Below, one piece after another: positions 10,899-42,991 of a stretch of 64,000 bases of DNA. The position numbers and the translations under genes are program-made. The notes beneath the pieces are model-generated. The model did no database searches. It was not told where the DNA came from and was given only the letters and a program-made list of their open reading frames with translations. The stretch spans positions 1 through 64,000 of the forward strand of contig SUSZ01000006.1 of NCBI GenBank assembly GCA_015063165.1, read 5' to 3'. How positions within the stretch are numbered: position 1 is the stretch's first letter; every line of letters starts with the position of its first letter. Source of the stretch: Thermoplasmata archaeon (GTDB taxonomy: Archaea; Thermoplasmatota; Thermoplasmata; Methanomassiliicoccales; Methanomethylophilaceae).

Positions 10899-11950
10899 AG
10901 TGCATTTCATCTTGCGAGATCGTCGAGCACGAGGGGCTCAGCGTCGGGGTCGTCCGCTTCACGGAGACCATGGAGGCGCTGTCCTCTGCCATACTCAACG
11001 GAGGCTCGACCGAGGCGGACGCCATGTTCATAATGCAGGTCCCGCACGATTACGACCACGACGACCCTATCGCCCACGCCATGTCTGTCAGGGACGCGCT
11101 GGGCCTTCCCGAGAACACCGTCGGGATGATGACCGCCGCCGAGGTGCCGTACGTCTTCAACAAGCAGGAGGTCGTCTTCGAGGGCGTCCCCGTCTGCGCC
11201 ATAGCCACCGCTGGCCTCAGCAACCACGTGGTCGCCGGCGACAAGCTGGTTGATTGGCCCGCCCGCCATATCGTATCCCTGGCCAGAGCGGCGAAGATGA
11301 TGGCCGGCACCATAAACATCGCCCTGGTGACGGAGAGCCCGCTCACCGAGGCCGGGAAGATCAACATGTTCATGCCTCTGGTGGAAGGCAAATCCGCCGC
11401 CATGGCCGACCGCGGGTTCAGGGAGACCGGAACCACATCCGATGCGATGGCGATCTTCTGCCCCAAGCACGGCGAGAGGGTCGGCTACACGGGCACAGGC
11501 TCGGACATCGGGATAGCCGCCGCGAGGGCATCCAGGGCCGCCGTAGGGTACGCTCTGGAGGCCAGAGGGGAGCATCCTGTCCCCGAGGAGCCCATGAAGC
11601 TCCTGGAGAGGCTGGGGTACGGAATGGACGCGATGTGGACCCTTTCCGGAACGCCCATGACCAAGGACGAGTACGCGGAATCCTTGGCTGAATACCTCAA
11701 GGGCGAGGACGTCAGGACCTTCCTGGACCTGGCCGTCTTCGCATCCGACCGCATAGATTCTCTCGCCGACGACGGGAACGTCACCGTGATGCCGATGGTC
11801 TACGACATCTGCCGCTCCTACCTGGGGATAACCCCCGACCTGAGCCACGGGACCGTCGAGGGCATCGTGACCGCCATCGCGGAGGACGCCGGGAGGAAAT
11901 CCCGATGGGATCCGACGGCACCAGCGGGTTCTCGGCCCTCAAGGGCATGA
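10880..11950 (+). CDS. cbiZ: Adenosylcobinamide amidohydrolase (CbiZ)
   Basis: 356 residues from ATG 10880; TTG 10895, overlapping the cbiB stop as TTGA, is an alternative start. CbiZ cleaves the aminopropanol side chain of adenosylcobinamide to give adenosylcobyric acid, letting archaea salvage external corrinoids through CbiB. Family-type stretches include AGLSNHVVAGD, GTINIALVTESPLTEAGKIN and ETGTTSDAMAIFCPK with GYTGTGSDIG. The last ~20 residues overlap the start of cobS and look unconstrained. Confidence 0.88.
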   Translation: MGVFVLKCISSCEIVEHEGLSVGVVRFTETMEALSSAILNGGSTEADAMFIMQVPHDYDHDDPIAHAMSVRDALGLPENTVGMMTAAEVPYVFNKQEVVFEGVPVCAIATAGLSNHVVAGDKLVDWPARHIVSLARAAKMMAGTINIALVTESPLTEAGKINMFMPLVEGKSAAMADRGFRETGTTSDAMAIFCPKHGERVGYTGTGSDIGIAAARASRAAVGYALEARGEHPVPEEPMKLLERLGYGMDAMWTLSGTPMTKDEYAESLAEYLKGEDVRTFLDLAVFASDRIDSLADDGNVTVMPMVYDICRSYLGITPDLSHGTVEGIVTAIAEDAGRKSRWDPTAPAGSRPSRA

Positions 11951-12750
11951 TCTCGTTCTTCACCCTGTGGCACATGGACATCACCCAGAGGGAGATGGAC
12001 TCCATGGAGACCAGGTTCCATCTGGTCCCGGTCGTGGGGATACTGTTCGGGATACCGCTGATGCTCGCGATGGCCGGATGCGTTCTGCTGTCGCGCGAGA
12101 TATTCGTCGACCTGGGCCTCCTCGCCGCCGTTTTCTGTCTTCTTATCGTCTACATCGGAAGCAAGTTCATCCATTTCGACGGCCTCACCGACTTCGGGGA
12201 CGGGATGATCGTCTCCGGACAGAGGGAGGACCACATTCGTGCCCTCAAGGACACGCTGGTGGGCGCAGGAGGCATCGGAGTGGCCCTGACGGTGACCCTC
12301 ACCACCTTCGCCATATACTCGACCTGGGGCCCTCTGACGCTCCTCATGCTGGCTCCTCTGACCGAGGTCATGGTCAAGAACGCGATGGTGTTCGCCGCCT
12401 CGTTCGGCCTTCCCGGGAAGGGGATGGCCGGAAGGCAGGTGTCCATGACCACTCCCAAGTCTGCCGCCAAGGGGATCGCGGTGAGCCTCCTGTGCGGAGC
12501 ACTGCTAGCTTTCCTAGCATCGCTGCTGTACGTATGGCTGACCGGAGCCGCCCTGGAGGACATGCTCCTGCCCATAGCCGTCATGCTCGTCGCAGGGATC
12601 GTCGTATCGGCTATCGTGGGCCTTATAATGGCCCGCAACGCCAACAGGGTGTTCGGCATGGTCAACGGCGACATCCTGGGCGCCACGAACGAGGTCTGCA
12701 GGCCCTTAGTTACCCTGGCGATGGGCATTGCATTTGTATTGGTGATCTGA
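11905..12750 (+). CDS. cobS: Adenosylcobinamide-GDP ribazoletransferase (cobalamin synthase, CobS)
   Basis: 281-residue integral membrane enzyme joining adenosylcobinamide-GDP with alpha-ribazole (phosphate). The family signature FIHFDGLTDFGDGM with the metal-binding Asp residues is at ~88-101; MVKNAMVFAASFGLP and GATNEVCRPLVTLAMGIAF follow, with five to six hydrophobic helices. The ATG at 11905 overlaps cbiZ by 46 bases; an ATG at 11947 would give an ATGA overlap but would cut into the LISFFT-like N-terminus of the family. Confidence 0.92.
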   Translation: MGSDGTSGFSALKGMISFFTLWHMDITQREMDSMETRFHLVPVVGILFGIPLMLAMAGCVLLSREIFVDLGLLAAVFCLLIVYIGSKFIHFDGLTDFGDGMIVSGQREDHIRALKDTLVGAGGIGVALTVTLTTFAIYSTWGPLTLLMLAPLTEVMVKNAMVFAASFGLPGKGMAGRQVSMTTPKSAAKGIAVSLLCGALLAFLASLLYVWLTGAALEDMLLPIAVMLVAGIVVSAIVGLIMARNANRVFGMVNGDILGATNEVCRPLVTLAMGIAFVLVI

Positions 12751-13409
12751 TGGAAGCCCTCGTGAACGCCGGCGGAAAAGGCTCCCGCATGGGAAGATGC
12801 GGAATCGAGAAGCCCATGCAGCTGGTCGGTGGGGTTCCCACCGTCAAAAGGGTAGTGGACGCCCTATCCGCATGCTCCAGGATAGACAGGATACTGGTAT
12901 CAGTGAGCGACAACACCCTGGAGACCGAGGCGTTCCTGGACAGCATCGGCGTGGAGACCATAAGGACCTCCGGGGAGAGCTTCATGGACGACCTTCACGC
13001 GTCCTTCGAGACGATGCACGGCGAATACGTCCTCACCTGTCCCTCGGACCTTCCTCTCCTCACTACGGAGGCCGTGGACGAGTTCCTGGACTTCTTCAAG
13101 CCGGGCGAGATGCAGTCGGCCATCGCCGTGGTGGACGAGGATACCGTACGCAGCGTCGGGATAACCCCTTCGTACACCCGCGAGGACGGCGGGAAGAACT
13201 GGGTGCTGTCCGGCATCTGCATCATGAGCCGCGAGGGGACCCTCAGGGGGGACTACCTCGAGGAGTTCCTGTTCAAGACCGGCCGCATAGACCTTTCGGT
13301 GAACGTCAACACCAAGGCCGAGCTCTTCCTGGCCAGAGGATTGGCCAACCATAACGGACAGGTGTCGGACGTTCGCAATCGATCGGCCATGGTGCATTTC
13401 GACCTGTAG
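12750..13409 (+). CDS. cobY: Adenosylcobinamide-phosphate guanylyltransferase (CobY)
   Basis: 219 residues, start overlapping the cobS stop (TGATGG). A MobA-like nucleotidyltransferase with VNAGGKGSRMG at the N-terminus (GTP-binding loop) and EKPMQLVGGVP after it. It makes adenosylcobinamide-GDP, the substrate of CobS; archaea use CobY in place of bacterial CobU. It ends in TAG (13407-13409), one of very few genes here that may end that way. Read-through would add 27 residues to a TAA, but the following sequence is AT-rich and not protein-like, so TAG probably is the stop. Confidence 0.88.
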   Translation: MEALVNAGGKGSRMGRCGIEKPMQLVGGVPTVKRVVDALSACSRIDRILVSVSDNTLETEAFLDSIGVETIRTSGESFMDDLHASFETMHGEYVLTCPSDLPLLTTEAVDEFLDFFKPGEMQSAIAVVDEDTVRSVGITPSYTREDGGKNWVLSGICIMSREGTLRGDYLEEFLFKTGRIDLSVNVNTKAELFLARGLANHNGQVSDVRNRSAMVHFDL

Positions 13410-13800
13410 AAAACGTGCTGTTTAATTATTGTATTTGTAGAACATGATGTCGGCTCGATAACAAAGCAGTCGTCGTTCACCCAGTGGTAATTCGAGCCAT
13501 TCGGCTGGAAAGATTTCGTTGCGTTTATCGGAAGAAGACGTCTGTGCAGCACATCAGGTACTTGGCGGTCGTTATGATTTCGGTGAGAGCGAAGCTGGTG
13601 GAAGCCATCCTTTGCGCATGTTGAGGCAGATCATGAGCAGGATCATGTCGCTCAGCAGCTTCCCGCAGACCCTTTGCACGGCCTATCCCTGAGGGGCAGT
13701 AGATCGAGGCACTCATCGGCGGTCTGTATCATCGACTGCTGTTTCCTTCTGTTTCGCACACCAATATGCATACCTGCCCGTTATGTTCGTTAATTGCGAG
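13410..13800. other. Intergenic region without a supportable gene
   Basis: Begins with an AT-rich stretch (TTTAATTATTGTATTTG) that could end transcription of the cob operon. Short frames of up to ~100 codons exist on the minus strand but overlap each other, show no recognisable motif and look like unconstrained sequence. It may be a decayed remnant. Confidence 0.4.
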
Positions 13801-13806
13801 AAATCT

Positions 13807-13816
13807 ATTTAAATAA
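13807..13816 (+). promoter_or_regulatory. TATA box for the dockerin binding-protein operon
   Basis: ATTTAAATAA lies 43-52 bases before the ATG at 13859, placing a transcript start near 13835-13840 with a ~20-base leader. This argues against the upstream in-frame ATGs at 13820-13826. Confidence 0.6.
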
Positions 13817-13858
13817 TACTTGATTATGGATAATTGGATATTTCATCCAAGTGATAAC

Positions 13859-15295
13859 ATGGACAAGAAATATATGGCAATCGCGATTGTCGCAGTCGCC
13901 GTTATTCTTGTTGCCGTCGCTGCTGTTGTCCTCATGGGGCAGAACGGCAAAGGCGGAGACAACAAATACGACCTCAATGACATCGCTAATGCGGAGCAGA
14001 ACACCTCTATCACCGGAAAAGAGGGTTGCTACGATAAGTTCCCCGCAATTGAAGAATGCAATCTCGTCATCTACGGGAATGTCAACAACGATATGGACAT
14101 CGATAACTCAGACATGACCGCTCTCAGAAAGATTATTGCGGACAACAGCTGGGACAAAAACAAGAACCCCTTCGCTGATGTGAACTGCGACGGTAAAGTC
14201 AATAACAGCGACGTCACCGCTCTTCAGAAGATCCTCAACAAAGAAAAGACGCTTCTTTACTACGTCAACTCCAATGGATACCCCGACTACATCCATTATC
14301 CCGTAACCGGAAAGATCGGTATCAACTACGACTACGGATATATGTGCGCTCAGATCCTTGGTAACTACGACCAGATTACCGCTGGAACCGCCAGATGGAC
14401 CCAGGAGAAAGTTACTGACACCATGTACCCTGGAGTTCACTCGTTCTACAACATGGGGGATGGAAAGACCGTCGAAGAGGCTCTCGCCGCTTACCAGAAT
14501 GCTGGAGTCACCGTCATTATGGGAACCGGATCCACATATGACCTCAACGTCGCTCTCCATGAGTCCGGATACGGAATCGACTGTCTCAACCTCAGGTTCG
14601 ATCAGGTAATCAACCTCTCCTACGTTCCACCGATTGCCAGACTTATTACTGCCGGATTCATCTTCGACCAGATGGACAATGCACTCACCTTCTATAACTG
14701 GTGGAATAACCTCAACAACAAGATCGAAACGATTTTCGACGCTGCTGGACTTGACAAGAAGACTTTTGTCGTTCCCTACAACACCAACCAGGCTGTTGAG
14801 ACTTCTGTGGATGACTGTCTCTCCAACGGAAGAACCATGGGAGATTACACAAACGTCAGAGATAACCTTCCCATGACTCCCGCCCTCACTCCTTCTTCGG
14901 AAGCTACCGGCCCTTGTTATACCACTACCATCGAGTATCTGCTTACCGTAAACCCTGATGTACTCATTATCAGCATGTGGGGTTCTCTGACGGATGCTAC
15001 CTCTTACAACGATGCATACGCAGTATTCAAAGAGAAAGCGGATTACTTCAAGAACTTTGACGCATACAAGAAAGGAGATGTTTACGGAGTCTGCTACGAA
15101 ACCTTCGGAACTTATGCGGGAGTCGCCGTTCTGTATCTTCTCTGCTCGTACGTCTACCCCGACCTCTTCTCTGAGGAGGACGGATGGAACTACGTCGACT
15201 ACTACTTCGACAACTTCACCCTGCTCGACAAGAAGACTGACCTGAAGAATGCAGGAGGACTCATTGTCTTCCAGCTTAACAGGACCAAACCCTGA
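13859..15295 (+). CDS. Substrate-binding protein with dockerin domain, corrinoid/iron-type ABC importer
   Basis: 478 residues from ATG 13859. An N-terminal hydrophobic helix (about residues 5-27) anchors or exports it. Next comes a type I dockerin-like pair of calcium loops: GNVNNDMDIDNSDMTALRKI and ADVNCDGKVNNSDVTALQKI (about residues 65-120). The remainder is a periplasmic-binding-protein-like domain, with GVTVIMGTGSTYDL and VNPDVLIISMWG. It heads an operon with a FecCD permease and an ATPase, 450 bases after the corrinoid salvage genes. Corrinoid uptake is therefore the preferred guess; iron chelate is the alternative. Codon use is less GC-rich than the cob operon. Confidence 0.82.
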   Translation: MDKKYMAIAIVAVAVILVAVAAVVLMGQNGKGGDNKYDLNDIANAEQNTSITGKEGCYDKFPAIEECNLVIYGNVNNDMDIDNSDMTALRKIIADNSWDKNKNPFADVNCDGKVNNSDVTALQKILNKEKTLLYYVNSNGYPDYIHYPVTGKIGINYDYGYMCAQILGNYDQITAGTARWTQEKVTDTMYPGVHSFYNMGDGKTVEEALAAYQNAGVTVIMGTGSTYDLNVALHESGYGIDCLNLRFDQVINLSYVPPIARLITAGFIFDQMDNALTFYNWWNNLNNKIETIFDAAGLDKKTFVVPYNTNQAVETSVDDCLSNGRTMGDYTNVRDNLPMTPALTPSSEATGPCYTTTIEYLLTVNPDVLIISMWGSLTDATSYNDAYAVFKEKADYFKNFDAYKKGDVYGVCYETFGTYAGVAVLYLLCSYVYPDLFSEEDGWNYVDYYFDNFTLLDKKTDLKNAGGLIVFQLNRTKP

Positions 15296-15303
15296 AACTT
15301 CTC

Positions 15304-15325
15304 GCCTGTCCCAGCCGGGACAGGC
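15304..15325 (+). terminator. Perfect 9-bp hairpin between binding protein and permease
   Basis: GCCTGTCCC-AGCC-GGGACAGGC lies 9 bases after the binding-protein stop and before the permease start at 15354. It has no T-run, so it more likely stabilises the upstream mRNA, or attenuates permease expression, than terminates fully. Confidence 0.5.
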
Positions 15326-15353
15326 ACATCTATACAAGGAGCCGAAGACCAGT

Positions 15354-16550
15354 ATGACTGATTCGGATAACATGGCAGGGATTTCCTCCGTGCCGGAAGG
15401 AGTCCCTATGACGGAACGCCGCATCCCGGTAAACGATCCTCTAGTAAGCGCCAAGACCGCCAGGGCTCTTTCCAAATGGATGGAAATTCGCGAAGAGTCT
15501 GAAGAGGACAGAGAATCCTACAGGCAGTATGACAACTACGTCTGGAAGAAATGGATCTTCATGGTCGCATGCATTGTGGTCATGTTCGTTACCGCCGGCC
15601 TCGCCTGCACTATCGGTCCCATGAACATCACTTTCGTGGAGACGTATGAGACCCTTTGGAACCATATTACCGGCAACATCACGGACGTGAACTACGATTA
15701 TGTCATAATCGACCTCCGTATGCCCCGCATATTCATGGCTATAGTAGCCGGTGCGGGACTCGCTATTTGCGGTGCCGCAATGCAGAGCACCCTGATGAAT
15801 CCTTTAGCTGACCCGTACACTACCGGAGTTTCTTCCGGAGCATCGTTCGGAGCCACCATGGCTATGCTCGCCGGATTCACAGTCGTCGCTGGAGAATACG
15901 GGCTGGTCGCCAACGCTTTCTTATTCTCGCTCATACCCACGGCACTGATCGTGGCTTTGGCTAAGATTAAAAAATCCTCTCCGACAACCATGATCATGGC
16001 AGGTATAGCCGTGATGTACATCTTCAACGCATTCACCACAGTCATGATGCTTATGGCGGATCCCAATGATCTGGAAGCGGTATATGAATGGCAGGTCGGT
16101 TCCCTGTCCCGTGCGTCTTGGGAGGACATCACCGTTTCCGGATTATTCGTAGTATCCGGTTCTCTGGTTGTCATGTTACTCTCCAAGAAGCTGAACGTCC
16201 TCTCAACTGGGGATGATATGGCGGCTTCTTTGGGAGTTGACACTTCCAAACTCAGAACGTTCATGATGATTCTAGTTGCATTGGTAACAGCCAGCATAGT
16301 CAGTTTCGTCGGTCTGATAGGATTTGTCGGTCTGGTTGCGCCTCATGTTGTCAGGCTGTTCATCGGAGCCGACAACAGATATCTTGTACCTGCCTCAGCC
16401 GTATTCGGAGCTGCTCTCCTGATGGTTTCCGACCTTGTAGGAAGGGTGGTTATCCAACCGGCTACGTTGCAGGTAGGGGTTATCACTGCTTTCATCGGAG
16501 GGCCCGTGTTCCTGTGGCTCCTGCTGAGGAAGAACTCCAACGTATGGTGA
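15354..16550 (+). CDS. FecCD/BtuC-family ABC permease
   Basis: 398 residues from ATG 15354, with AAGGAG 12 bases upstream. An ~65-residue cytoplasmic, acidic N-terminal extension precedes about ten membrane helices. Family marks are LRMPRIFMAIVAGAGLAICGAAMQ, the NPLADPYTTGVSSGASFGA loop, and FVGLIGFVGLVAPHVVRLFIG near the C-terminus, which contacts the ATPase. Works with the binding protein before it and the ATPase four bases after it to import a metal chelate or corrinoid. Confidence 0.92.
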   Translation: MTDSDNMAGISSVPEGVPMTERRIPVNDPLVSAKTARALSKWMEIREESEEDRESYRQYDNYVWKKWIFMVACIVVMFVTAGLACTIGPMNITFVETYETLWNHITGNITDVNYDYVIIDLRMPRIFMAIVAGAGLAICGAAMQSTLMNPLADPYTTGVSSGASFGATMAMLAGFTVVAGEYGLVANAFLFSLIPTALIVALAKIKKSSPTTMIMAGIAVMYIFNAFTTVMMLMADPNDLEAVYEWQVGSLSRASWEDITVSGLFVVSGSLVVMLLSKKLNVLSTGDDMAASLGVDTSKLRTFMMILVALVTASIVSFVGLIGFVGLVAPHVVRLFIGADNRYLVPASAVFGAALLMVSDLVGRVVIQPATLQVGVITAFIGGPVFLWLLLRKNSNVW

Positions 16551-16554
16551 TCTC

Positions 16555-17337
16555 ATGGAATACGAAGTCAGAAACCTGGATTTCGGTTACAGGACGCATC
16601 ACGTCCTCACCGACATCAATCTCAAGTTCGACAAACCGGGGCTGGTATGTATCATCGGCCCGAACGGTGTCGGAAAATCTACTCTCGTCAAGTGTATGAA
16701 TAGGGTTAACAAAGGATATACAGGAGAGGTGCTTATAGATGGTGTCGACATCAAAACGATGACCAGCAAGGATATTTCCATGAAGGTTGCCTTCGTCCCC
16801 GCAGGAACTCAGGACATATTTGCAATGACTGTTATGGATACGGTTCTGATAGGAAGGCACAATATCCAAGGATGGAGGACTACCCGTAAAGACCTCGAGA
16901 CCGTTCGTAGAGCGCTTGAGATGCTTTCTCTTGAAGATCTTGCGATGAGAAACTTCAACGAACTTTCTGCAGGACAGCACCAGAGGGTCGCCCTAGCCAG
17001 AGGATTGGTTCAGGAGACGCCATGCATAATCCTGGACGAGCCCACGTCCAACCTGGATGTCAAGCATCAGGTGTTCGTTGCCGAACTCCTTCGCGCCCTG
17101 GCTGTGATGGAGAATAAACTCGTTATCATGATATGCCATGACCTCAACATAGCCGCAAGATACTCTCACGAGATCGTAGTGATGAAGGAGCCGGGAATCA
17201 TATACAAAGTCGGAAAACCGATCGATGTGATTACCGAAGACCTCGTCAGAGACGTTTACGGAATAAACTGCGAGATTACAGTAGTAGATGGAAGTCCTCA
17301 TGTAATCTTGAAAGAAACCGTCGACGATGGCGAATGA
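16555..17337 (+). CDS. ABC importer ATPase (BtuD/FecE type)
   Basis: 260 residues. Walker A GPNGVGKST (~35-43), Q-loop region FVPAGTQDIF, signature LSAGQHQRVALARG (the usual Gly-Gly is Ala-Gly), Walker B CIILDEPTSNLD, and H-loop MICHDL. Drives the FecCD-type importer encoded immediately upstream. Followed by a stem-loop that probably ends the operon. Confidence 0.92.
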   Translation: MEYEVRNLDFGYRTHHVLTDINLKFDKPGLVCIIGPNGVGKSTLVKCMNRVNKGYTGEVLIDGVDIKTMTSKDISMKVAFVPAGTQDIFAMTVMDTVLIGRHNIQGWRTTRKDLETVRRALEMLSLEDLAMRNFNELSAGQHQRVALARGLVQETPCIILDEPTSNLDVKHQVFVAELLRALAVMENKLVIMICHDLNIAARYSHEIVVMKEPGIIYKVGKPIDVITEDLVRDVYGINCEITVVDGSPHVILKETVDDGE

Positions 17338-33036: not shown

Positions 33037-34068
33037 TTAATCTCGGAAGCCGGCAGGACGGCCGTCTCGTCCGTCGATGCGGGTCGATCCGTCGAGCATA
33101 TCGCGGTATCTCTTCCTGTAACGGCTGGGGGTGCATCCGAACATCTTCTGGAACTCCTCGGCGAATTTGCTCTCCTTCCGGAAGCCGCTGCTGTTCGCGA
33201 TCGCCCCGATGGGCTCGTCGCCGACCATCAGCTCGCTGGAGGCACAGAGCATCCTCTGGTGCTTATGGAACGCGTAGGGCGTATCCCCATACACCTCTGA
33301 GAAGGACGAGCATATGTTGCATCTGTCCATGTCGAGTTCCAGGCACGCCTCCTTGATGTTGCATGGACGGTCGTAGCAAGACGCCAGCCTGTCGTACAGC
33401 CGGTCCTCCCTCTCGGAGAGATGGGCTAGGACCATCCCTTTGGGGCGAGCGTCCAGCGGTTCGGAGAGGTCTTCCAGGATCTCGTCCACGAGGGCATGGA
33501 TTAGCGCCCTTCTCTCAGGACGACCCAGCGCTCTCTAGATGGCCATGGCGTCGGCCATGGGTCTGTCGGGCAGCCTCAGAGGCCATAGCGGCCTGTCCTT
33601 GTACTATTCTACGAACCGCCGTACGGCGCCCGCAGGTTCCGCATCGGCGCCCTCGGGCAGGATGCCGTACCTGTCCAGGTCTATCCCGATGGTGATTGAT
33701 TCGTATCCTTCGGTGTGGACGGTCATGAAAGACTGCACGCTCACCGGGTAATAGATGACGACGCTGCCTGGCGACAGGGACAGATGATTTCCGCCGTACT
33801 CTATGGTCATCCTGCCATGCAACGTGCAGTCGATCATGATGAAGTTCATCTGGCCGATCTGGTTCCTGTTCGAGAATCTCGGCATATCCGTGACCATATG
33901 ATTCACCACGAACCCCTGGTCGAAAGGATAGTTCATCACATCGGTCGATCCGCCAGGACCTCTGATGGAGTATCTGAGGCCCGATTCGAACGGTGTGATC
34001 TCGAAATTGTTGTGGAGCAGCGTGTCCATGTCTTCTCGCCGACCTAGAGGCTGTGAGGATGGCCCCAT
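33037..34068 (-). CDS. AraC-family regulator with two in-frame amber codons
   Basis: One frame from ATG 34068 to TAA 33037 with TAG at codons 155 and 178, 343 residues if read through; ATG 34029 is an alternative start. Residues 1-150 form a cupin-like sensor half (GGNHLSLSPGSVVIYYPVSVQSF). Residues ~255-335 hold two helix-turn-helix units: CNIKEACLELDMDRCNICSSFSEVYG and PIGAIANSSGFRKESKFAEEFQKMFGCTPSRYRKRY. The ambers fall in the linker. Divergent from the triple-domain binding protein across a shared promoter, so it most likely controls that uptake cluster, as AraC regulators do at siderophore loci. Confidence 0.82.
33535..33537 (-). other. Second in-frame TAG of the AraC gene
   Basis: Codon 178, between MADAMAI and RALGRPERR. 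Frame and coding character continue on both sides. Confidence 0.6.
33604..33606 (-). other. First in-frame TAG of the AraC gene
   Basis: Codon 155, between GAVRRFVE and YKDRPLWPL. No ATG that would give a sensible separate start lies between it and the DNA-binding half except far downstream. Confidence 0.6.
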
Positions 34069-34070
34069 TA

Positions 34071-34138
34071 TTTGTAATTATTAGTCATGGTTAAATAATG
34101 AGTCGGCGAGATAATCCAATCCGATACCATATCGGTGG
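34071..34138. promoter_or_regulatory. Divergent promoter and RBS between AraC and triple binding-protein genes
   Basis: GGTTAAATAATG at 34089-34100 provides a TATA-like element readable on both strands: about 25 bases from the AraC ATG (34068) and 45 from the binding-protein ATG. GGTGG at 34134-34138 sits four bases before ATG 34143 and decides that start over 34098. Confidence 0.6.
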
Positions 34139-34142
34139 TAGA

Positions 34143-37100
34143 ATGGATAAAAAGATTATCGCTTTGATAGCTATCGTCGCAGTGGTCGCCATCGCTGCCG
34201 CGGCAGCCTTCGTCGTCATGAGCGGCAGCAGCGACGAAAAGGCTCCTGTCGAGAAAGACACCTTGAAAGTGACGGACATGGCTGGCAACGAGGTCCAGCT
34301 CAAGGTTCCCCTGGAGAGGGTCGTCTGCGGCGATGCGGGCCTGATGACCCTGGTAGCATCGATCGCAGGAGAGAACTTTGGGAACATCCTGGTAGGGTAT
34401 GACAGCAATCTCCGCGAGATGTATCCAGATTTCATGGATATGTGGACGGATGCCGGCATAGACTTCTCTAAGATCAAGCCGGTTGGATCCTTCCTGGACT
34501 CCTCGTTCAACTGGGAGACGGTCGCTTCGCTGAAGCCCGACGCCGTGTTCGTCCCGTACTGGTGCATCACGTATGGTATGGTCACCCAGGAGAGCATCGA
34601 CAACATGGCCAAGGCCGGGATCCCGATCGTCACCCTGGACCTGTTCTCGGCCAAGCTGAACGCGGACGAGATGTCCAAGAACTGCGAGGTGCTCGGAAAG
34701 ATATTCAAGAACGAGCGCACGGCGAGCGATGTGGCCAAGTTCTACAGGAACCAGGTGGAGAAAGTCTCCAGCAAGCTCTCGCAGGTCCCTGCGGACAAGT
34801 ACACGTACTACATCGAGACGATAACCAACCTCGGCCAGTATTGCCTGAACTATTCCACGGACGACGGCAAGCCGCAGGAAGCGCTCAACCAGAAGTCCCT
34901 GACCAAGTACGGCGAGACCGTGGGCGCGGAGGCGTTCGCTTCCAGCGATGTGGACTTCATATTCCTGGATCTTCTCAGAGCGTACTACCCGGACATCGGG
35001 AAGTACATAGGATGGGGAGCCAAGGCCCCCACGGAGTCGGATCTCCGCACGCTCGCTTCGGCTCTCGACAAGAGGGTCGGATGGTCCGCCAGCATCCCCG
35101 CCATCGACAACAACGAGATCTATTTCATAAACAAGATGTCCATGAGCGGTACGATAGACGGCTGGTGGATACAGCAGTTCTATGCGGAGAAGATGTTCCC
35201 CGAGATCTTCGGCGACCTGGGATACATCGAGGCGCTGGGCGATTTCTACAAGACATACCTTCCCTGGGTCGATTTCAGAGGCGTATGGTACTTCGGTCTC
35301 AACGGCGAGGTCGGGGCGACTCCCGTTTCGGAGAGCAGGGACAAGGCGGCCACGGTCACCATAACCGATCTCGCAGGGCGCGAGGTCAAGATAAGCACCC
35401 CTGTCGAGAGGGTGGTCTGCGGCGACGCCGAGGCGATGTCCCTGATAGCGGCCATCGCCGGAGAGGATTTCAAGGACTGCCTCGTCGGATACGACAGCAA
35501 CCTCCAGACGTACTACCCCGACCTGGCCAGGATGTGGGAGAACGCCGGACTGGACTTCTCCAAGATCGCCTCCGTCGGGAGCTTCCAGAACTCTACCTTC
35601 AGCTGGGAGGCCGTCGCCTCCCTGGATCCGGACGTGGTCTTCGTTCCGATGTGGGTGTACCAGTACGGGATGGTGTCCGAGGATACGGCCAAGAAGATGG
35701 CCGACGCGGGCATCCCGATAGTGAACCTCGATCTCTTCGTCAACAGCTACGACGCAGATACGATGTCCAAGAACTGCGACATCATCGGGAAGATCTTCGA
35801 CAGGAGAGGCGTCGCCTCCAAGGTCGCCGACTTCTACGCGGAGCAGCTGGATTCCGTTCTCGGCAAGAGGTCCCAGATCCCTGAAGGGAAGCTCTCCTTC
35901 TACGAGGAGATGCTGGTCAAGCTCGACACATACAGGGGCGGAGCAAACGTCGCGGAGGCCCTGGCGCTCGGCCAGCAGAACATCGCGACGCCCGGCCAGC
36001 AGATCAGCGCCGAGGCCTTCGTCGCGAGCGATCCGGATCACGTCTTCTTCATGGCCTACAACGGTGCGGCCGAATGCGGGAGGAACATCGGATGGGGCGC
36101 GACGGTCACCGCTTCCGACATCGCCGATATAAGCGCCTCGTTGTCCAAGAGGCCCGGATGGAACAGCGTCACCGCCGTGAAGAACAAAGACGTCATGGTC
36201 TACGACCAGGTCTATTTCAACACGTTCGAGAACTGGATGATCCTCCAGCTCCATGCTATGCAGATGTTCCCTGATATGTTCTCGTCGTTGGACCCTGTCG
36301 GATCCCTCGAGAGCTTCTACGAGGAGTTCCTGCCCTGGGTGGAGCTCAAGGGCGTCTGGTACTTCACCCTGGGCGGCGACATCGGGGAGACCCAGACGTC
36401 TGGCGGCGGCGACGTGGGCAGGACTGTGACGGTGACCGATCTGGCTGGACGCGAGGTAGCGCTCGACATCCCTCTGAAGAGGGTGGTGTGCGGCGACGCC
36501 GAGTCGATGACCCTGATCGCGTCCATTGCAGGCGAGCAGTTCACCGACATCGTAGTCGGATACGACAGCAACCTCAACACGTTCTACCCGGATTTGAAGG
36601 AGATGTGGACCAACGCCGGCATGAACTTCGGCAGGATGACCGAGGTCGGCAGCTTCCTTCAGGGGACGTTCAACTGGGAGACCGTCGCATCGCTGAACCC
36701 CGACGCGGTCTTCATGCCAACCTGGTGCATCCAGTACGGGATGGTCAGTCAGGAGACCGTGGACAAGATGGCGAAGGCGGGCATACCTATAGTTACTCTC
36801 GACCTGTTCGTCGGAAAGCTCAACCCGGAAACCATGAGCAAGAACTGCGACATCGTGGGGAAGATATTCGACAACCAGTCCAAGGCCGCGAAGGTAGCCG
36901 ATTTCTATAAGACGCAGGTCGAGAAGGTGTCCAGCAAGCTCTCGCAGGTCCCTGCAGAGAAGTACACGTACTATGTCGAGCTCGTCACATACCTGTCGCA
37001 ATACAGCCAGAACGAGTCTGACAACCCCATAGAGTGCCTCAACCAGAAGTCCTTGACCCAGTACAAGCAGACCGTGAGCCCCGAGGTGTTCGCGACCAGC

Positions 37101-37478
37101 GATGTGGACTTCGTATTCTTCGACCTCCTCAGGTCGTACGCTCCGGAGTGCGGCAAGTTCATCGGATGGGGGGCCAGCGTCACCAAGTCCGACATAGACT
37201 CCATCGCGGCCAAGCTCGGCACGAGGATAGGCTGGAACGATTCGGTGCCTGCCATCAGCAGCGGCAACGTCTACTTCATCGACAAGATGAGCATGATCGG
37301 CATGTTCGACTGCTGGTTCGTCTACCAGTTCATGGCGGAGACCATGTTCCCGGAGATCTACGGCGACCTCGACTGCCTCGGGACTCTGGACGGATTCTAT
37401 TCAGAGTACCTCCCATGGGTCGAGTTCAAGGGCGTCTGGTATTTCTCCATCGACGGAGAGGTGGGAGCCACTTCCTGA
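34143..37478 (+). CDS. ABC substrate-binding protein with three tandem binding domains
   Basis: 1111 residues from ATG 34143 (RBS GGTGG). An N-terminal anchor helix (about 4-27) is followed by three homologous domains of ~340 residues. Each begins with a V-TD-AG-EV strand and PLERVVCGD (PVERVVCGD, PLKRVVCGD), has GYDSNL, GSF and a YGMV motif mid-domain, and ends PWV-FKGVWYF. They match the iron-siderophore/cobalamin binding family. Domains 1 and 3 are closer to each other than to 2 (both keep VEKVSSKLSQVPA and YTYY). Followed by a FecCD permease and an ATPase. Three binding domains for one transporter could raise local ligand capture or accept different ligands. Confidence 0.92.
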   Translation: MDKKIIALIAIVAVVAIAAAAAFVVMSGSSDEKAPVEKDTLKVTDMAGNEVQLKVPLERVVCGDAGLMTLVASIAGENFGNILVGYDSNLREMYPDFMDMWTDAGIDFSKIKPVGSFLDSSFNWETVASLKPDAVFVPYWCITYGMVTQESIDNMAKAGIPIVTLDLFSAKLNADEMSKNCEVLGKIFKNERTASDVAKFYRNQVEKVSSKLSQVPADKYTYYIETITNLGQYCLNYSTDDGKPQEALNQKSLTKYGETVGAEAFASSDVDFIFLDLLRAYYPDIGKYIGWGAKAPTESDLRTLASALDKRVGWSASIPAIDNNEIYFINKMSMSGTIDGWWIQQFYAEKMFPEIFGDLGYIEALGDFYKTYLPWVDFRGVWYFGLNGEVGATPVSESRDKAATVTITDLAGREVKISTPVERVVCGDAEAMSLIAAIAGEDFKDCLVGYDSNLQTYYPDLARMWENAGLDFSKIASVGSFQNSTFSWEAVASLDPDVVFVPMWVYQYGMVSEDTAKKMADAGIPIVNLDLFVNSYDADTMSKNCDIIGKIFDRRGVASKVADFYAEQLDSVLGKRSQIPEGKLSFYEEMLVKLDTYRGGANVAEALALGQQNIATPGQQISAEAFVASDPDHVFFMAYNGAAECGRNIGWGATVTASDIADISASLSKRPGWNSVTAVKNKDVMVYDQVYFNTFENWMILQLHAMQMFPDMFSSLDPVGSLESFYEEFLPWVELKGVWYFTLGGDIGETQTSGGGDVGRTVTVTDLAGREVALDIPLKRVVCGDAESMTLIASIAGEQFTDIVVGYDSNLNTFYPDLKEMWTNAGMNFGRMTEVGSFLQGTFNWETVASLNPDAVFMPTWCIQYGMVSQETVDKMAKAGIPIVTLDLFVGKLNPETMSKNCDIVGKIFDNQSKAAKVADFYKTQVEKVSSKLSQVPAEKYTYYVELVTYLSQYSQNESDNPIECLNQKSLTQYKQTVSPEVFATSDVDFVFFDLLRSYAPECGKFIGWGASVTKSDIDSIAAKLGTRIGWNDSVPAISSGNVYFIDKMSMIGMFDCWFVYQFMAETMFPEIYGDLDCLGTLDGFYSEYLPWVEFKGVWYFSIDGEVGATS

Positions 37479-37536: not shown

Positions 37537-38601
37537 ATGGAGAATCACGAAACTACAGACGGCTCCCACATGATGAAAGGATACGATCGCCTGATAGGAA
37601 GGCGCAAGATGTACCTGGCGGCATCGATCGTGGTGTGCGTGGCGGCTTTTTTCATAGACCTCACCGTGGGTTCCTCGGGGATGTCGGTCATCGACGCCAT
37701 CAGGACGCTCGTCGTCCCGGATCAGGTCACCGCCATGGACAGGCTGATCATCTACGACATACGCCTTCCGGCGACGACCATGGCTATAGCCGTCGGCATG
37801 AGCCTTGCGCTCGCCGGATCGGTCATGCAGACGATTTTGGACAACCCGATGGCCGAGCCCTATACGCTGGGGATATCCTCGTCGGCAGGGTTCGGGGCCG
37901 CGCTTATGATAGTCGTCGGGTCCTCCGCGGTCGGAGCGATGGGGATGATCATGATCTCCGCCGGCGCATTCGGCTGCAGCATGATGGCCTGTCTGGTCAT
38001 CTACATGGTGGCCAGGTTCAGGGCCTCCGACAAGTCGACCATCCTTCTGACAGGGATTGCGATATTCTTCATGTTCCAGGCCCTGCTCTCCACGATGCAG
38101 CTGCTCGCGAACAGCAACCAGCTGTCTGAGATAGTGTTCTGGATGTTCGGGAGCCTAGCCAGATGCTCATTGGAGCAGTGCGGCGCGGTCATCCTGGTGC
38201 TTTCCATCTCATCGATCGTGTTCATCTTCAGCTCGTGGAGGTACACTGCCCTCAAGCTCGGGGATGCATACGCGTCTAGCCTCGGGGTTGACGTAGCAGG
38301 GCTCAGGAGAAGGACCCTGATAGTGGTGTCTGTGCTCACCTCCGTCGCCGTCTGCTTCGTGGGGACGATCGGATTCATCGGGCTGATAGCGCCGCACATC
38401 TCGAGGTTCCTCGTGGGCGAGGACCACAGGTACTACATCCCGATGTCCATGGCGGTGGGGGCGATCATCCTCATCCTGGCCAACATGCTGAGCAAGGTGG
38501 TGGCTGCGCCGTCGATATTCCCTGTCGGGATCCTCACGTCGTTCATCGGAATCCCGTTCTTCTTCTATCTCGTCCTTTCGAAGAGGAGGTTCGCATCATG
38601 A
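37537..38601 (+). CDS. FecCD-family ABC permease
   Basis: 354 residues. About ten membrane helices; DIRLPATTMAIAVGMSLALAGSVMQ, DNPMAEPYTLGISSSAGFGA and FVGTIGFIGLIAPHISRFLVG are the family marks. RBS-like GGGGTCAG lies before ATG 37537. The stop overlaps the ATPase start (ATGA). Partner of the triple-domain binding protein. Confidence 0.93.
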   Translation: MENHETTDGSHMMKGYDRLIGRRKMYLAASIVVCVAAFFIDLTVGSSGMSVIDAIRTLVVPDQVTAMDRLIIYDIRLPATTMAIAVGMSLALAGSVMQTILDNPMAEPYTLGISSSAGFGAALMIVVGSSAVGAMGMIMISAGAFGCSMMACLVIYMVARFRASDKSTILLTGIAIFFMFQALLSTMQLLANSNQLSEIVFWMFGSLARCSLEQCGAVILVLSISSIVFIFSSWRYTALKLGDAYASSLGVDVAGLRRRTLIVVSVLTSVAVCFVGTIGFIGLIAPHISRFLVGEDHRYYIPMSMAVGAIILILANMLSKVVAAPSIFPVGILTSFIGIPFFFYLVLSKRRFAS

Positions 38602-39368
38602 GCCTGGAGCTCAAGGGGGTGGTGTGCAGCTACAGCCAGAAGGAGGTCCTGCACGACGTATCCTTCGAATCTGACGCCAGGCTGATAGCGGTGGTGGGGC
38701 CGAACGCCGCTGGCAAGTCCACATTGATCAAATGCATGGCGGGGCAGATCCCCCATGGCGGGTCCATCTCGTTCAACGGCACGGAGATAGGCCGCGTCGA
38801 TCAGACCTCTACCGACCTGGTGGGTTATCTGCCGCAGCAGCACATGAGCGCCGTGGCGATGACCGTGTACGAGACCATCCTCCTCGGGAGGCTCAATCAC
38901 ATCAGATGGAGCCCCAGCGAAGAGGACAGGCGCATGGTGGACCATGCGATGACGGAGCTCTCTCTCGACAGGATCGCTGACAAGCAGATCAACGAGCTGT
39001 CTGGAGGGCAGCTGCAGATGATCTCCATCGCCCAGGCGCTGGTGAAGGAGCCGCAGCTCCTGCTCATGGACGAGCCCACGAACAATCTCGACCTCCAGAA
39101 GCAGCTGGAGATGTTCGAGGTAGTGAAGGATCTGTCCGAACAGCGCGGGCTGGTGACGGTGATGATCCTGCACGACCTGAACCTCGCCTCCCGCTTCGCG
39201 GACGAGGTTGTGGTCCTCCAGGAGGGGAGGGTGTATGCCAAGGGGCCCGCCCAGGGGATCTTCACGGAAGAGATGCTGAGGGACGTCTACAAGGTGAGCG
39301 CGGAGGTGATCCACGACCGCGACGGGCTCCCGCACGTGGTCGCATACGGATCCCTGAAGCACACGTGA
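38598..39368 (+). CDS. ABC importer ATPase (FecE/BtuD type)
   Basis: 256 residues; Walker A GPNAAGKST, Q-loop LPQQHMSAVAMTV, signature LSGGQLQMISIAQ, Walker B LLLMDEPTNNLD, H-loop ILHDLNLASRF. Starts by ATGA overlap with the permease, so the two are translated together. Powers the second importer. Confidence 0.94.
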   Translation: MSLELKGVVCSYSQKEVLHDVSFESDARLIAVVGPNAAGKSTLIKCMAGQIPHGGSISFNGTEIGRVDQTSTDLVGYLPQQHMSAVAMTVYETILLGRLNHIRWSPSEEDRRMVDHAMTELSLDRIADKQINELSGGQLQMISIAQALVKEPQLLLMDEPTNNLDLQKQLEMFEVVKDLSEQRGLVTVMILHDLNLASRFADEVVVLQEGRVYAKGPAQGIFTEEMLRDVYKVSAEVIHDRDGLPHVVAYGSLKHT

Positions 39369-39428
39369 ATCGAAGGATGCAGGACGCAGGTCAGGAACGG
39401 AGAACGATTGACGACGAAAAGGTGGAAC

Positions 39429-41216
39429 ATGTTCAAGAAAGACAAGCATAGCCGCATCGCGGAATTCGAGAAATATGCCGAGGGCAGGCATCACTGGGTG
39501 AAGGCTTCGATGATAGGGTCGGCCATAAGCTCGGTGCTGTCCATCGTGCCCTTCTATTACATCTGGCTGACGGTTGACGAGGCGCTCGGCGCGGGCGACC
39601 CGGATACGATGATAGGATACGGCTGGTCGGCAATGGCGTTCGCGGTCCTGTCGATCGCCGTCTACATCCTGTCGCTCATAATATCGCACTTCGCCGCCTT
39701 CCGCATAGCCAAGAACATGAAGAAGATTCTCGTGGAGCATTCCCTGAAGCTGTCCCCCGGCGCGTTCGACGAGGAGGGCAGCGGAAGGATACGCAGGGTG
39801 ATACAGGACTCGGTGGAGTCCACCCACGAGTTCATAGCGCACAACCAGCCGGACCTGGCTGGGATGTACGTCCTCCCGTTCGCGATAGTCGCCCTGCTGC
39901 TGGTGTTCGACTGGAGGCTGGGCGTCGCCGCTCTCGTCCCCGTGATGATCGGAGGCTACATCTCCATGTCCATGATGGGAAGGTCCTCCATGCAGGAGAG
40001 CATGACCGCATGGCAGTCGTCCATGGCCGATGTCAACAACAAGGCCGTGGAGTATGTCCGCGGAATCTCCGTCGTGAAGATATTCCAGCAGACCGTGGAT
40101 TCCTTCCAGAGCCTCAAGGGGTCCATCGACTCCTACGCAGCGTACTGCCAGGGATACACCGAGATGGCCAGGAGGCCGATGACCGCATTCTTCGTCCTGG
40201 TAAACAGCTGCGTGTCGTACGTGATCATATTCGGGGTGCTGATCATCGAGGTCCTGGAGAGCGGCGAGATAAGCAGCGGCATGGTCTCCAACGTGATCTT
40301 CTACGTGGTGTTCACGCCGCTCATCTCGGTCCTGTTCATGAGGATAATGTTCTCGTCCGACCAGACCTACAGGGTGGACGACGCCCTGATGCGGGTGAAC
40401 GAGATCCTTTCCATCGAGCCTCTGGAAGAGCCCTCCGCCCCCAAGATGCCGAAGTGCTTCGACATCGCGTTCGACAACGTCCGCTTCTCCTACTCCGAGG
40501 GTCTGGCGCCCGCTATAGACGGCGTCTCGCTGGAGCTGAAGCAAGGGACGATAACCGCTCTCGTAGGGCCGTCCGGCAGCGGGAAATCCACGATGGCGGG
40601 ACTGGCCGGGAGGTTCTGGGATCCGCAGGATGGCTCGATATCCATAGGCGGCATCGACCTCCGCGACATCGGCAGCAGCAACCTGCGCTCCATAGAGAGC
40701 TACGTCTTCCAGAACAACCGCCTCATCAAGGGGACCCTGCTGGAAAACGTCCGTCTGGGAAGGCCTCAGGCCGGGCCGGAGGAGGTGGCGGAAGCGCTCA
40801 GGCTCGCCCAATGCGAGGACCTCGTCGCCAAGATGCCCCACGGCCTGGACACCCTCATCGGCCCTGGAGGGACGTACCTCTCCGGAGGGGAGGTGCAGAG
40901 GATCGCCATCGCCAGGGCCATCCTAAGGGACGCCCCCATAGTGATATTGGACGAGGCGACGGCGTTCGCGGACCCGGAGAACGAGCATCTGATCCAGAAG
41001 GCTTTCGAGGAGCTCTCCAAGGGCCGCACCGTGCTGCTGATAGCGCATCGCCTCACCACCATCCGCAATGCGGACCTGATATGCGTGATGGATCGCGGCA
41101 GGATCGTCGAGTCCGGAAGGCACGACGAGCTGATGTCCTCCGCCGGAAAGTACCGTGACATGTGGGATGATTACCAGAAAGCCCTCTCCTGGAAGGTCAA
41201 GGAGGCGTCCGCATGA
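39429..41216 (+). CDS. Exporter-fold ABC transporter, subunit A
   Basis: 595 residues from ATG 39429, preceded by AGGTGG six bases away (TTG 39408 lacks this). Six-helix membrane domain, then nucleotide-binding domain: Walker A GPSGSGKST, Q-loop YVFQNNRL, signature LSGGEVQRIAIARA, Walker B IVILDEATAFAD, H-loop IAHRL. Forms a pair with the next gene (ATGA overlap). Located after a siderophore-type importer and near an AraC regulator, an arrangement like yersiniabactin YbtP/YbtQ, where exporter-fold subunits serve in uptake. Direction of transport is unproved. Confidence 0.9.
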   Translation: MFKKDKHSRIAEFEKYAEGRHHWVKASMIGSAISSVLSIVPFYYIWLTVDEALGAGDPDTMIGYGWSAMAFAVLSIAVYILSLIISHFAAFRIAKNMKKILVEHSLKLSPGAFDEEGSGRIRRVIQDSVESTHEFIAHNQPDLAGMYVLPFAIVALLLVFDWRLGVAALVPVMIGGYISMSMMGRSSMQESMTAWQSSMADVNNKAVEYVRGISVVKIFQQTVDSFQSLKGSIDSYAAYCQGYTEMARRPMTAFFVLVNSCVSYVIIFGVLIIEVLESGEISSGMVSNVIFYVVFTPLISVLFMRIMFSSDQTYRVDDALMRVNEILSIEPLEEPSAPKMPKCFDIAFDNVRFSYSEGLAPAIDGVSLELKQGTITALVGPSGSGKSTMAGLAGRFWDPQDGSISIGGIDLRDIGSSNLRSIESYVFQNNRLIKGTLLENVRLGRPQAGPEEVAEALRLAQCEDLVAKMPHGLDTLIGPGGTYLSGGEVQRIAIARAILRDAPIVILDEATAFADPENEHLIQKAFEELSKGRTVLLIAHRLTTIRNADLICVMDRGRIVESGRHDELMSSAGKYRDMWDDYQKALSWKVKEASA

Positions 41217-42991
41217 GCGTCTCAGGGTCTCTCAAGGAACGCTGGGGGCTCACGGATAAGCAATGGAGCAACCTCAAGAGGGCCATAGCGGCGACGCTCG
41301 TCACGGACTTCGTCCTGATGGTCCCGATGATGGTCGCCATCATGTTCGTGGCCGGCCTGATAGGGGACAACCAGTACGATTTCGGCCTCGACCTGTGGGT
41401 CTACGCTGCGATAGGCCTGGTGATGATGCTGGCGACCGGCGCCGCCTACTTGTACCAGTACAACCGCTGCTTCTTCGACGTCTACCAGGAGAGCCGGAAC
41501 GTCCGCACGGGCATGGCGGAGAAGATGAGGAAGGTTCCGCTGTCGTTCTTCGCCAAGAAGGACCCTACTGACCTCACGGTGCGCATGATGGGTGACGTGA
41601 CGATGCAGGAGACCGCGCTTTCCCATTGGATCCCCGCCCTCGTAGCCTCGCTGATATTCACGACCGCCGTCGGCGTGATGATAGTCGCATGGTCTCCGAT
41701 CCTGGGGCTGGCGATAGTTTGGCCGATCCCGGTGGCGTTCCTGATGGTGTTCCTCTCGGCCGGGATGCAGAAGAAGGAGAACAGGAGGAAGATGGAGAAG
41801 ATGGAGGCCGTCACCGAGATGATACAGGAGTCCCTGGAATGCTCCGCGGACCTCAAGGCCAACGATGCCCAGGGATCCTACATGGCGAGGCTTGGGAAGA
41901 ACCTCGACGCCGTCGAGGGCGCGGAGATCAGGTCGGAGCTCACGATGTCCTTCTTCGTGGTTGGCGGACAGCTGGTCCTGAAGCTCGGGATCGCGACCAC
42001 TGCCATAGCCGGCGCCGTGCTCTTCTCCGAAGGCTCCATATCTCTGATAGTGTACATCGCGGCCCTCATAATGGTCGGGAGCATCTACAACCCGATCAAC
42101 ATCGCCTTGCAGAACCTTGCCGCCATACTTATGGCGGAGGACCACTGCGAGCGCATCCAGGAGATCAATAGCCTGGGTATCCAGACCGGGTCGGAGTCTT
42201 TCGAGCCCGAGAACTACGATATCGAGTTCAAGAACGTGGGGTTCTCGTACAACGACGGCCAGACCGTCCTGGAGGACGTCTCCTTCGTGGCGAGGCAGGG
42301 AGAGGTCACCGCGCTGGTGGGCCCGTCCGGAGAGGGGAAGTCCACCGTCGCCAGGCTGGCCACCAGGTTCTGGGATGTCGACAAGGGGCAGATAACTCTT
42401 GGGGGCATAGACACATCCATGGTCGATCCCGAGACGTTGATGAGCAAGTACTCCATAGTCTTCCAGGACGTCGCGTTGTTCAACACCACCGTGATGGAGA
42501 ACATCCGCATTGGAAGGAGGGGGGCATCCGACGAGGAGGTGCTCGCGGCGGCCGAAGCGGCGATGTGCGACGAGTTCGTGTCCGCCCTTCCCGAAGGATA
42601 CGATACGGTTATCGGCGAGAACGGGAGCAAGCTCTCCGGAGGCGAGAGGCAGAGGATCTCCATAGCGAGGGCGATATTGAAGGACGCCCCGATCATCATC
42701 ATGGACGAAGCCACGGCCTCGCTCGACACCGAATCGGAGAGCAGGGTCCAGAAGGCCCTGTCCAGGCTCGTGGTCGACAAGACGGTTCTGATAATCGCCC
42801 ACAGGATGAGGACTGTGGAGGAGGCCGACAAGATCGTCGTCCTGTCGGGAGGAAAGGTGGGCGAGGAAGGCCCGCCGTCGGTGCTGAAGGAATCCGGAGG
42901 GCTGTTCGAAAGGATGGTGAAGCTCCAGACCGACTCTGACGTATGGAGTCTGCGATGGCCGATCGCGCTAAGAAGGCCGGAGATAACATGA
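41213..42991 (+). CDS. Exporter-fold ABC transporter, subunit B
   Basis: 592 residues. Membrane domain with PLSFFAKKDPTDLTVRMMGDV coupling region, then Walker A GPSGEGKST, Q-loop IVFQDVALF, signature LSGGERQRISIARA, Walker B IIIMDEATASLD, H-loop IAHRM. Partner of the preceding gene as a heterodimer. Last gene of the cluster. Confidence 0.9.
   Translation: MSVSGSLKERWGLTDKQWSNLKRAIAATLVTDFVLMVPMMVAIMFVAGLIGDNQYDFGLDLWVYAAIGLVMMLATGAAYLYQYNRCFFDVYQESRNVRTGMAEKMRKVPLSFFAKKDPTDLTVRMMGDVTMQETALSHWIPALVASLIFTTAVGVMIVAWSPILGLAIVWPIPVAFLMVFLSAGMQKKENRRKMEKMEAVTEMIQESLECSADLKANDAQGSYMARLGKNLDAVEGAEIRSELTMSFFVVGGQLVLKLGIATTAIAGAVLFSEGSISLIVYIAALIMVGSIYNPINIALQNLAAILMAEDHCERIQEINSLGIQTGSESFEPENYDIEFKNVGFSYNDGQTVLEDVSFVARQGEVTALVGPSGEGKSTVARLATRFWDVDKGQITLGGIDTSMVDPETLMSKYSIVFQDVALFNTTVMENIRIGRRGASDEEVLAAAEAAMCDEFVSALPEGYDTVIGENGSKLSGGERQRISIARAILKDAPIIIMDEATASLDTESESRVQKALSRLVVDKTVLIIAHRMRTVEEADKIVVLSGGKVGEEGPPSVLKESGGLFERMVKLQTDSDVWSLRWPIALRRPEIT

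Follow-up and report, generated by a model that had tools for sequence, protein, structure and literature searches.

A three-domain substrate-binding protein beside a single FecCD-type ABC importer in an archaeon of the Methanomethylophilaceae

Results

Organization of the locus

The window, a stretch of 64,000 nucleotides from contig SUSZ01000006.1 of a Thermoplasmata archaeon (Methanomassiliicoccales, Methanomethylophilaceae; assembly GCA_015063165.1), contained a forward frame at 34143-37478 that encoded 1111 residues and was not interrupted by any stop codon. It was followed by the genes of a FecCD-family permease, an ABC ATPase and two exporter-fold ABC half-transporters, and preceded by the divergent gene of an AraC-type regulator (Table 1). 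Another in-frame ATG was located at 34098, and the start at 34143 was favored because the first start in the frame of the orthologue from a genome of the same genus (G026) already yielded a protein of 1111 residues. The Pfam model PF01497 (Peripla_BP_2, cluster A-2) matched the protein in three stretches, with 126.1 bits over the whole protein against a curated cut-off of 27.5 (E 1.8e-36). Only one hydrophobic segment was found, at approximately residues 5-27, with a 19-residue Kyte-Doolittle mean of 3.05, whereas the maximum beyond residue 40 was 1.29. The initial annotation had described three complete homologous binding domains behind one membrane anchor, served by a single FecCD permease and ATPase, and the reading frame, the Pfam matches and the hydrophobicity profile bore out this arrangement of domains, anchor and genes.

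Table 1. Features of the three-domain locus, with positions counted in the window
Feature	Coordinates	Strand	Evidence
AraC-type regulator, divergent, two in-frame TAG codons (33604-33606, 33535-33537)	33037..34029	-	HTH_18
Three-domain substrate-binding protein, 1111 aa	34143..37478	+	ORF; three PF01497 stretches; three-domain orthologue in G026 at 95%
N-terminal membrane anchor and tether, residues 1-40	34143..34262	+	Sole strong hydrophobic window; pLDDT < 50 at residues 1-37
Binding domain 1 (d1), residues 41-400	34263..35342	+	dN/dS 0.107 vs G026; two docking Glu present
d1/d2 linker, residues 388-402	35304..35348	+	pLDDT < 50 in low-confidence full-length model
Binding domain 2 (d2), residues 401-757	35343..36413	+	dN/dS 0.051; two docking Glu present; cleft loops diverged
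d2/d3 linker, Gly/Ser-rich, residues 736-759	36348..36419	+	pLDDT < 50 in low-confidence full-length model
Binding domain 3 (d3), residues 758-1111	36414..37475	+	dN/dS 0.103; AlphaFold2 pLDDT 93.7; best PDB match 4mo9, Z 34.5
FecCD-family permease	37537..38601	+	PF01032 E 9.5e-81
ABC ATPase of the importer	38598..39368	+	PF00005 E 9.9e-28; nearest NCBIfam models heme/F420-0/FecE/corrinoid ATPases, all below cut-off
Exporter-fold ABC half-transporter, YbtP/IrtA-like	39408..41216	+	PF00664 and PF00005; PDB 6p6i_A 316 bits
Exporter-fold ABC half-transporter, YbtQ-like partner	41213..42991	+	PF00664 and PF00005; YbtQ 266 bits

The AraC-type regulator aligned over its full length with the intact regulator of a related genome (G025) at 41% identity. 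Among the matches listed for bacterial half-transporters of the PDB, the first half-transporter scored highest with 6p6i_A, followed by IrtA (289 bits), Sav1866 (227) and MsbA (222), and the second scored highest with YbtQ, followed by TM_0288 (245 bits). Eukaryotic full-length ABCB proteins had higher total scores than these half-transporters, summed over their two repeated halves. Similar half-transporter pairs adjoined the genes of a single-domain substrate-binding protein (SBP), a FecCD permease and an ATPase in two other genomes (G015 and G020) and SBP and ATPase genes in two more (G081 and G045), and one subunit was found in such a place in G109. A separate set of genes for a dockerin-containing SBP, a FecCD permease and an ATPase was located at 13820-17337 of the window, beside CbiZ and CobS, and is likely the corrinoid importer of the window.

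Integrity and conservation of the three domains

The protein identity between the domains was 46% for d1-d2, 63% for d1-d3 and 53% for d2-d3. The corresponding DNA copies were in register, with spacings of 1092 and 1071 nt, and were 65-78% identical (65-70% in the longest repeat, of about 300 nt). A repeat collapsed or expanded during assembly or binning, which the initial annotation had named as the explanation that would overturn it, was judged exceedingly improbable. Such loci can break assemblers, since the related gene of another genome (G011) was split over two contigs that shared an identical overlap of 141 nt. The copies in the window, however, were too different at the DNA level for mis-joining, and a sheep-rumen metagenome-assembled genome of the same genus (G026, RGIG6908) encoded the same three-domain protein of 1111 residues, 95-96% identical, with the same genes downstream. 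Given this independent orthologue, and internal copies that were just 46-63% identical as protein, the gene was not regarded as an artefact. When the domains of the window's genome (G000) and of G026 were matched by position, they were 95-97% identical, and the three-domain form therefore predates the split of the two genomes. A search of the genome contigs for related loci yielded two loci only. The dN/dS ratios between the two orthologues were between 0.05 and 0.11 in each domain (Table 1), and that of the permease was 0.064; all three domains are thus maintained by purifying selection, and the possibility that they were decaying copies was rejected.

Fold and docking residues

The AlphaFold2 model of d3, based on an alignment of 42 rows, was of high confidence, whereas the full-length model, based on four rows, was poor (pLDDT 63.9), and d1 and d2 were modeled only in the latter. 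The closest fold to the d3 model was the FepB-like protein of Veillonella (4mo9), with an rmsd of 2.4 over 335 residues, and the entries of Yersinia YiuA followed with Z scores of about 30-32 over 316-329 residues. The molybdate-type relative 3psa was also within the fold neighborhood of d3. No relevant paper was found in the literature on the PDB entries 9HRJ, 9HT5, 9IF3 and 9HRP. A glutamate was present at both aligned docking positions, one per lobe, in all three domains of the window and in 9/9 aligned rows of the family to which they belong (family A). We take these positions to be equivalent to the docking glutamates of BtuF, which contact the permease. In a second family (family B), which was 22-23% identical to d1 of the window, neither glutamate was present in any of the 11 rows, yet its arrays adjoined FecCD genes; the arrays thus do not all dock by these residues. 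Judged from the aligned residues, family B would have to use another mode of docking, if it docks at all, unless the alignment is wrong in this region.

Domain number in related genomes

The number of domains varied among the relatives. The protein of G011 (roe-deer rumen, matching RGIG5104) contained d1 and d2 only, and its d2 ended in the same last residues as d3 of the window. It most likely lost d3, because the split between d1 and d3 preceded the d1 branch of G011 in the domain tree. A two-domain version of the family A protein with 765 residues was found in G025, and only a fragment of a substrate-binding domain (SBD), fused in frame to the terminal part of the ATPase, was found in G001. 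Among the family B proteins, those of G000 and G029 had two domains and those of G025 and G001 had three; the three domains in G001 were 87-91% identical to one another and thus result from a recent amplification. Within the genus, 10 of the 31 genomes matched the profile of families A and B at E <= 1e-30: six had an array of family A or B (the G011 array being split over two contigs), and four had single-domain matches only. At the level of the order, 17 of 147 genomes matched at 1e-25. In an evenly drawn sample of 389 genomes from the phylum, with up to five candidates scored per genome, so that diverged arrays can be missed, seven matched at 1e-20, and more than one match per frame occurred only in G000 and G029. 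These surveys were confined to Thermoplasmatota, and arrays may thus also occur in other groups.

Multi-domain binding proteins in the same genome

The genome of the window contained 30 FecCD genes. In their surroundings, 19 distinct SBP-like frames were detected, nine of which carried two or three SBD-like regions (the window's gene, C58, and C35, C40, C57, C44, C37, C17, C31 and C38). This proportion refers to detected genes, because eight of the 30 FecCD genes showed no SBD-like frame nearby, and an SBP does exist for at least one of these eight (C63). Six of the nine arrays had at least two PF01497 stretches each, and C17, C31 and C38 were recognized by phmmer, Pfam giving weak or partial support. 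The internal repeats were compared by pairwise alignment of the split domains. The identity within the array was 84-90% in C57, 76-82% in C40 and 85-92% in C17, far above the likeness to the domains of other arrays; dissimilar domains were paired in one protein in C37 (28%), C31 (22%) and C38 (21%). Several separate internal duplications, together with combinations of unlike domains, therefore have to be assumed. Dockerins alternated with the binding domains in C40. In C275 of genome G107, from another genus (g12), a single B-type domain was joined in one protein with a near-identical pair of domains of a different type, one dockerin and one additional domain. The statement in the initial annotation that such proteins normally have one domain may be true of the family as a whole, but it does not describe this genome. 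To judge from these genes, the repeated duplication or combination of binding domains inside one polypeptide appears to be a habit of the lineage, and what is surprising is less the single gene of the window than that one genome assembled such strings repeatedly and independently.

Divergence of the second domain

Domain 2 had initially been described as lacking segments shared by domains 1 and 3. The alignment did not confirm this: in comparison with d1 and d3 together, d2 missed just three single residues, and the short insertions of d1 were absent from d3 as well. Missing segments were accordingly discarded as an argument for a difference of d2. The cleft loops were defined as the loops following the cleft-facing strands of the predicted d3 model, a choice of our own made without the use of coordinates or a bound ligand. 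Positions were counted when they were fixed within each orthologue pair and differed between domains, and positions that varied between the two genomes were left out. Between d1 and d2, fixed differences were found at 54 of 75 positions in the cleft loops and 31 of 79 in the other loops (p 5e-5), and between d2 and d3 at 49 of 77 and 24 of 78 positions, respectively (p 5e-5). No excess was found between d1 and d3 (28/77 versus 27/82, p 0.74). When the mask was rotated along the sequence, the observed value was reached by 1 of 347 masks for d1-d2 and by 2 of 347 for d2-d3, the true mask included in each case. Since d2 diverged preferentially in the cleft loops and d1 and d3 did not do so from each other, we infer two ligand specificities, with d1 and d3 probably sharing one and d2 having another. 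The cleft-loop counts were the main, though indirect, ground for this assignment, and the different ligand hinted at for domain 2 in the initial annotation was thereby supported, at the level of a predicted model, by the differences from d1 and d3 instead of by missing segments.

Discussion

Ligand class

The AraC-type regulator and the YbtP/IrtA- and YbtQ-like neighbors suggest uptake of a ferric chelate as the putative ligand. This class was chosen because the closest folds were those of iron-siderophore SBPs, because of the YbtP/YbtQ-like neighbors and the similar pairs beside the single-domain SBP genes of relatives, and because of the annotation of ISO4-G1, another member of the Methanomassiliicoccales, for which 15 Fe3+/siderophore ABC transporters are reported (PMC4824259). 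In YiuA, the basic triad consists of R64, R165 and R223 (PMC5683015). The aligned residues in the window were G/F/I in d1, E/F/L in d2 and E/F/V in d3, so that the mode of catecholate binding in YiuA cannot be assumed here. The NCBIfam subfamily models of the permease and the ATPase did not distinguish between B12, heme, hydroxamate and dicitrate, and all scored below their cut-offs, including the best permease model, BtuC. Corrinoids had been among the candidate ligands named at first, but they were not favored for the three-domain system because the set at 13820-17337, beside CbiZ and CobS, is the likelier corrinoid importer.

Proposed mechanism and alternatives

The preferred reading of these genes, to which we give about an even chance, is that of a tethered array of three receptors that serves one Type II (FecCD) ABC importer, most likely for metal chelates of the ferric-siderophore type, with d1 and d3 binding the same ligand and d2 another. 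The FecCD permease would form a homodimer with one docking site, and each domain would swing on its flexible linker, dock in turn through its own pair of glutamates and deliver its cargo. The capture of the same ligand by d1 and d3 would provide more receptor per pump, and with d2 capturing another ligand, a single pump would import two chelates or more. Expression of the cluster would be turned on by the AraC-type regulator, and the YbtP/YbtQ-like pair might transport or process that chelate in a further step, or import a second form.

The three domains could also bind the same ligand and serve avidity only, the triplication raising the receptor density per pump or the capture at very low ligand concentrations. 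The lack of a cleft-loop excess between d1 and d3 and the closely similar domains of C57, C40 and family B in G001, such as dosage would give, are consistent with this. It nevertheless appears rather unlikely, because d2 departed from both other domains preferentially in the cleft loops, in comparison with both the other loops and the rotated masks, and because dosage leaves unexplained the dissimilar domains of C37 and the mixture of SBD types in C275 of G107. A different cargo for the same architecture, be it a corrinoid, heme, the precursor of a cofactor or some metal complex other than a ferric siderophore, is unlikely as well. The YbtP/YbtQ-like neighbors and the other probable corrinoid importer in the window argue against such cargo, whereas the missing basic triad in all three domains, the presence of 3psa in the fold neighborhood and the rank of BtuC among the permease models, though below cut-off, point towards it. 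Finally, one or two domains might do the work while the rest are passengers of duplication or spacers, for which the unstable copy number in G011, G025 and G001 could be cited. We regard this as very improbable, since the dN/dS ratio between G000 and G026 was low for every domain and both docking glutamates were intact in all three.

Comparison with known transporters

The closest likeness in design was found in GlnPQ of Lactococcus, a Type I amino-acid importer whose tandem binding domains (SBD1-SBD2), as reported in PMC8025302, are connected by flexible linkers, differ in specificity, bind independently and compete for one translocator. The counterpart in the window, as read from the genes alone, comprises three SBDs and one FecCD gene in the cluster, and the shared use of the permease by the three SBDs is putative. 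The domains of GlnPQ are two in number, belong to another SBP class and are fused to the permease, whereas the three cluster A-2 domains of the window have their own anchor in a protein that ends at 37478, and the FecCD (Type II) permease is encoded by a separate frame from 37537. By analogy, the system of the window would work like GlnPQ without belonging to its group. YiuA and 4mo9 are cluster A-2 SBPs like d3, of which they are the closest folds, but they are single-domain proteins, and the triad of YiuA was found in none of the window's domains. The downstream half-transporters were nearer to YbtP/IrtA and YbtQ than to other bacterial half-transporters among the matches listed. Unlike the exporter-fold siderophore importers YbtPQ and IrtAB, however, the window's pair is archaeal and adjoins a complete SBP-FecCD-ATPase importer, and import by the pair is putative. 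ISO4-G1 has a large repertoire of transporters, which may be set beside the 30 FecCD genes found here, but multi-domain binding proteins are unmentioned in the passage on these transporters (PMC4824259).

The tandem-receptor design is known from amino-acid importers, and no description of it was found for the FecCD class of iron and vitamin importers. In the open-licence literature, no report was found of multi-domain binding proteins of the FecCD class or of such arrays in Methanomassiliicoccales, which is weak evidence of absence. Tandem SBDs that share a translocator serve as the model for how ABC importers select among ligands, and the studies found concern a single amino-acid importer of Type I. 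With a Type II counterpart whose three domains have a separate anchor, with natural one-, two- and three-domain variants, and with arrays that arose independently within a genome, comparison could show what receptor number, order and specificity each contribute. The system is also relevant to how methanogens of this order compete in the rumen for iron or cofactors, and their receptors would be underestimated if each gene were counted as one domain.

More broadly, and with somewhat less than even confidence, it may be proposed that in the Methanomethylophilaceae the lone SBP of a Type II importer evolved into a modular, anchored string of receptors, the domains of which were repeatedly and independently duplicated, lost or mixed, some of them spaced by dockerins or Ig-like domains. 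One pump would thereby serve several chelates in the rumen competition for iron and cofactors. The protein C68 of G107, with three dockerins and at least two SBDs recognized by Pfam (a third was recognized by eye), followed by three FecCD-ATPase pairs, suggests an extreme case of such a modular string. Cohesin matches were found in five of the six genomes tested, and their pairing with the dockerins of the arrays is putative.

Expansion of FecCD transporters and their receptors

In the 2.28-Mb genome of the window (G000), 30 genes encoded FecCD permeases, and the genomes G026, G001 and G107 carried 29, 43 and 47, respectively; the expansion of this transporter class in G000 is very large. One set within the window, at 13820-17337, consisted of a dockerin-bearing substrate-binding protein (SBP), a FecCD permease and an ATPase, and its CbiZ- and CobS-family neighbours indicated that it is likely a corrinoid salvage importer. 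Another receptor of G000 contained three units, each formed by a dockerin and a substrate-binding domain (SBD), with a mutual identity of 76-82%, and was adjoined by FecCD and ATPase genes. In G107, three consecutive FecCD-ATPase pairs followed a receptor string in which three dockerins were combined with SBDs; this locus joined several receptors with several pumps, whereas the window array has one pump. In family B, the second and distant array family, Glu was absent at both docking positions (one per SBD lobe) in 11 of the 11 domain rows (L039, L038, L047, L040, and L087), and FecCD genes were found downstream of the arrays wherever the contig extended far enough. These domains possibly use an alternative way of docking.

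Features of the array loci, dockerin strings and likely corrinoid region
Feature	Location	Strand	Remarks
Likely corrinoid-salvage region	window 10907-17337	+	CbiZ- and CobS-family genes, importer set
Dockerin-bearing SBP	window 13820-15295	+	adjoins CbiZ-/CobS-family genes
FecCD permease of this set	window 15249-16550	+	
ATPase of this set	window 16555-17337	+	
AraC-type regulator adjoining array	window 33037-34029	-	in-frame TAG at 33604-33606 and 33535-33537
Three-unit dockerin-SBD protein	L102:7124-11044 (G000:C40)	-	1306 residues
Dockerin/SBD string, permease-ATPase pairs	L090 = G107:C68:12000-22000		
SBD-ATPase fusion gene	L044:2600-3457 (G001:C52)	-	

Regulator and disrupted loci

The only in-frame stops in the AraC-type regulator were its two TAG codons. 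The G026 orthologue contained one TAG, matching the second site, and none was found in the regulators of G011, G001, and G025. Since G000 encodes a pyrrolysyl-tRNA synthetase (255 bits against a cut-off of 178), the regulator protein may contain pyrrolysine.

In the G001 fusion gene, the first part of an SBD ran on in the same reading frame into the C-terminal portion of the ATPase, as if all the intervening sequence had been deleted, which could reflect gene decay or misassembly. Two G011 contigs, C88 and C46 (L042 and L043), overlapped exactly over 141 nt within domain 1, a break of assembler style, so loci of this type are prone to fragmentation in MAGs.
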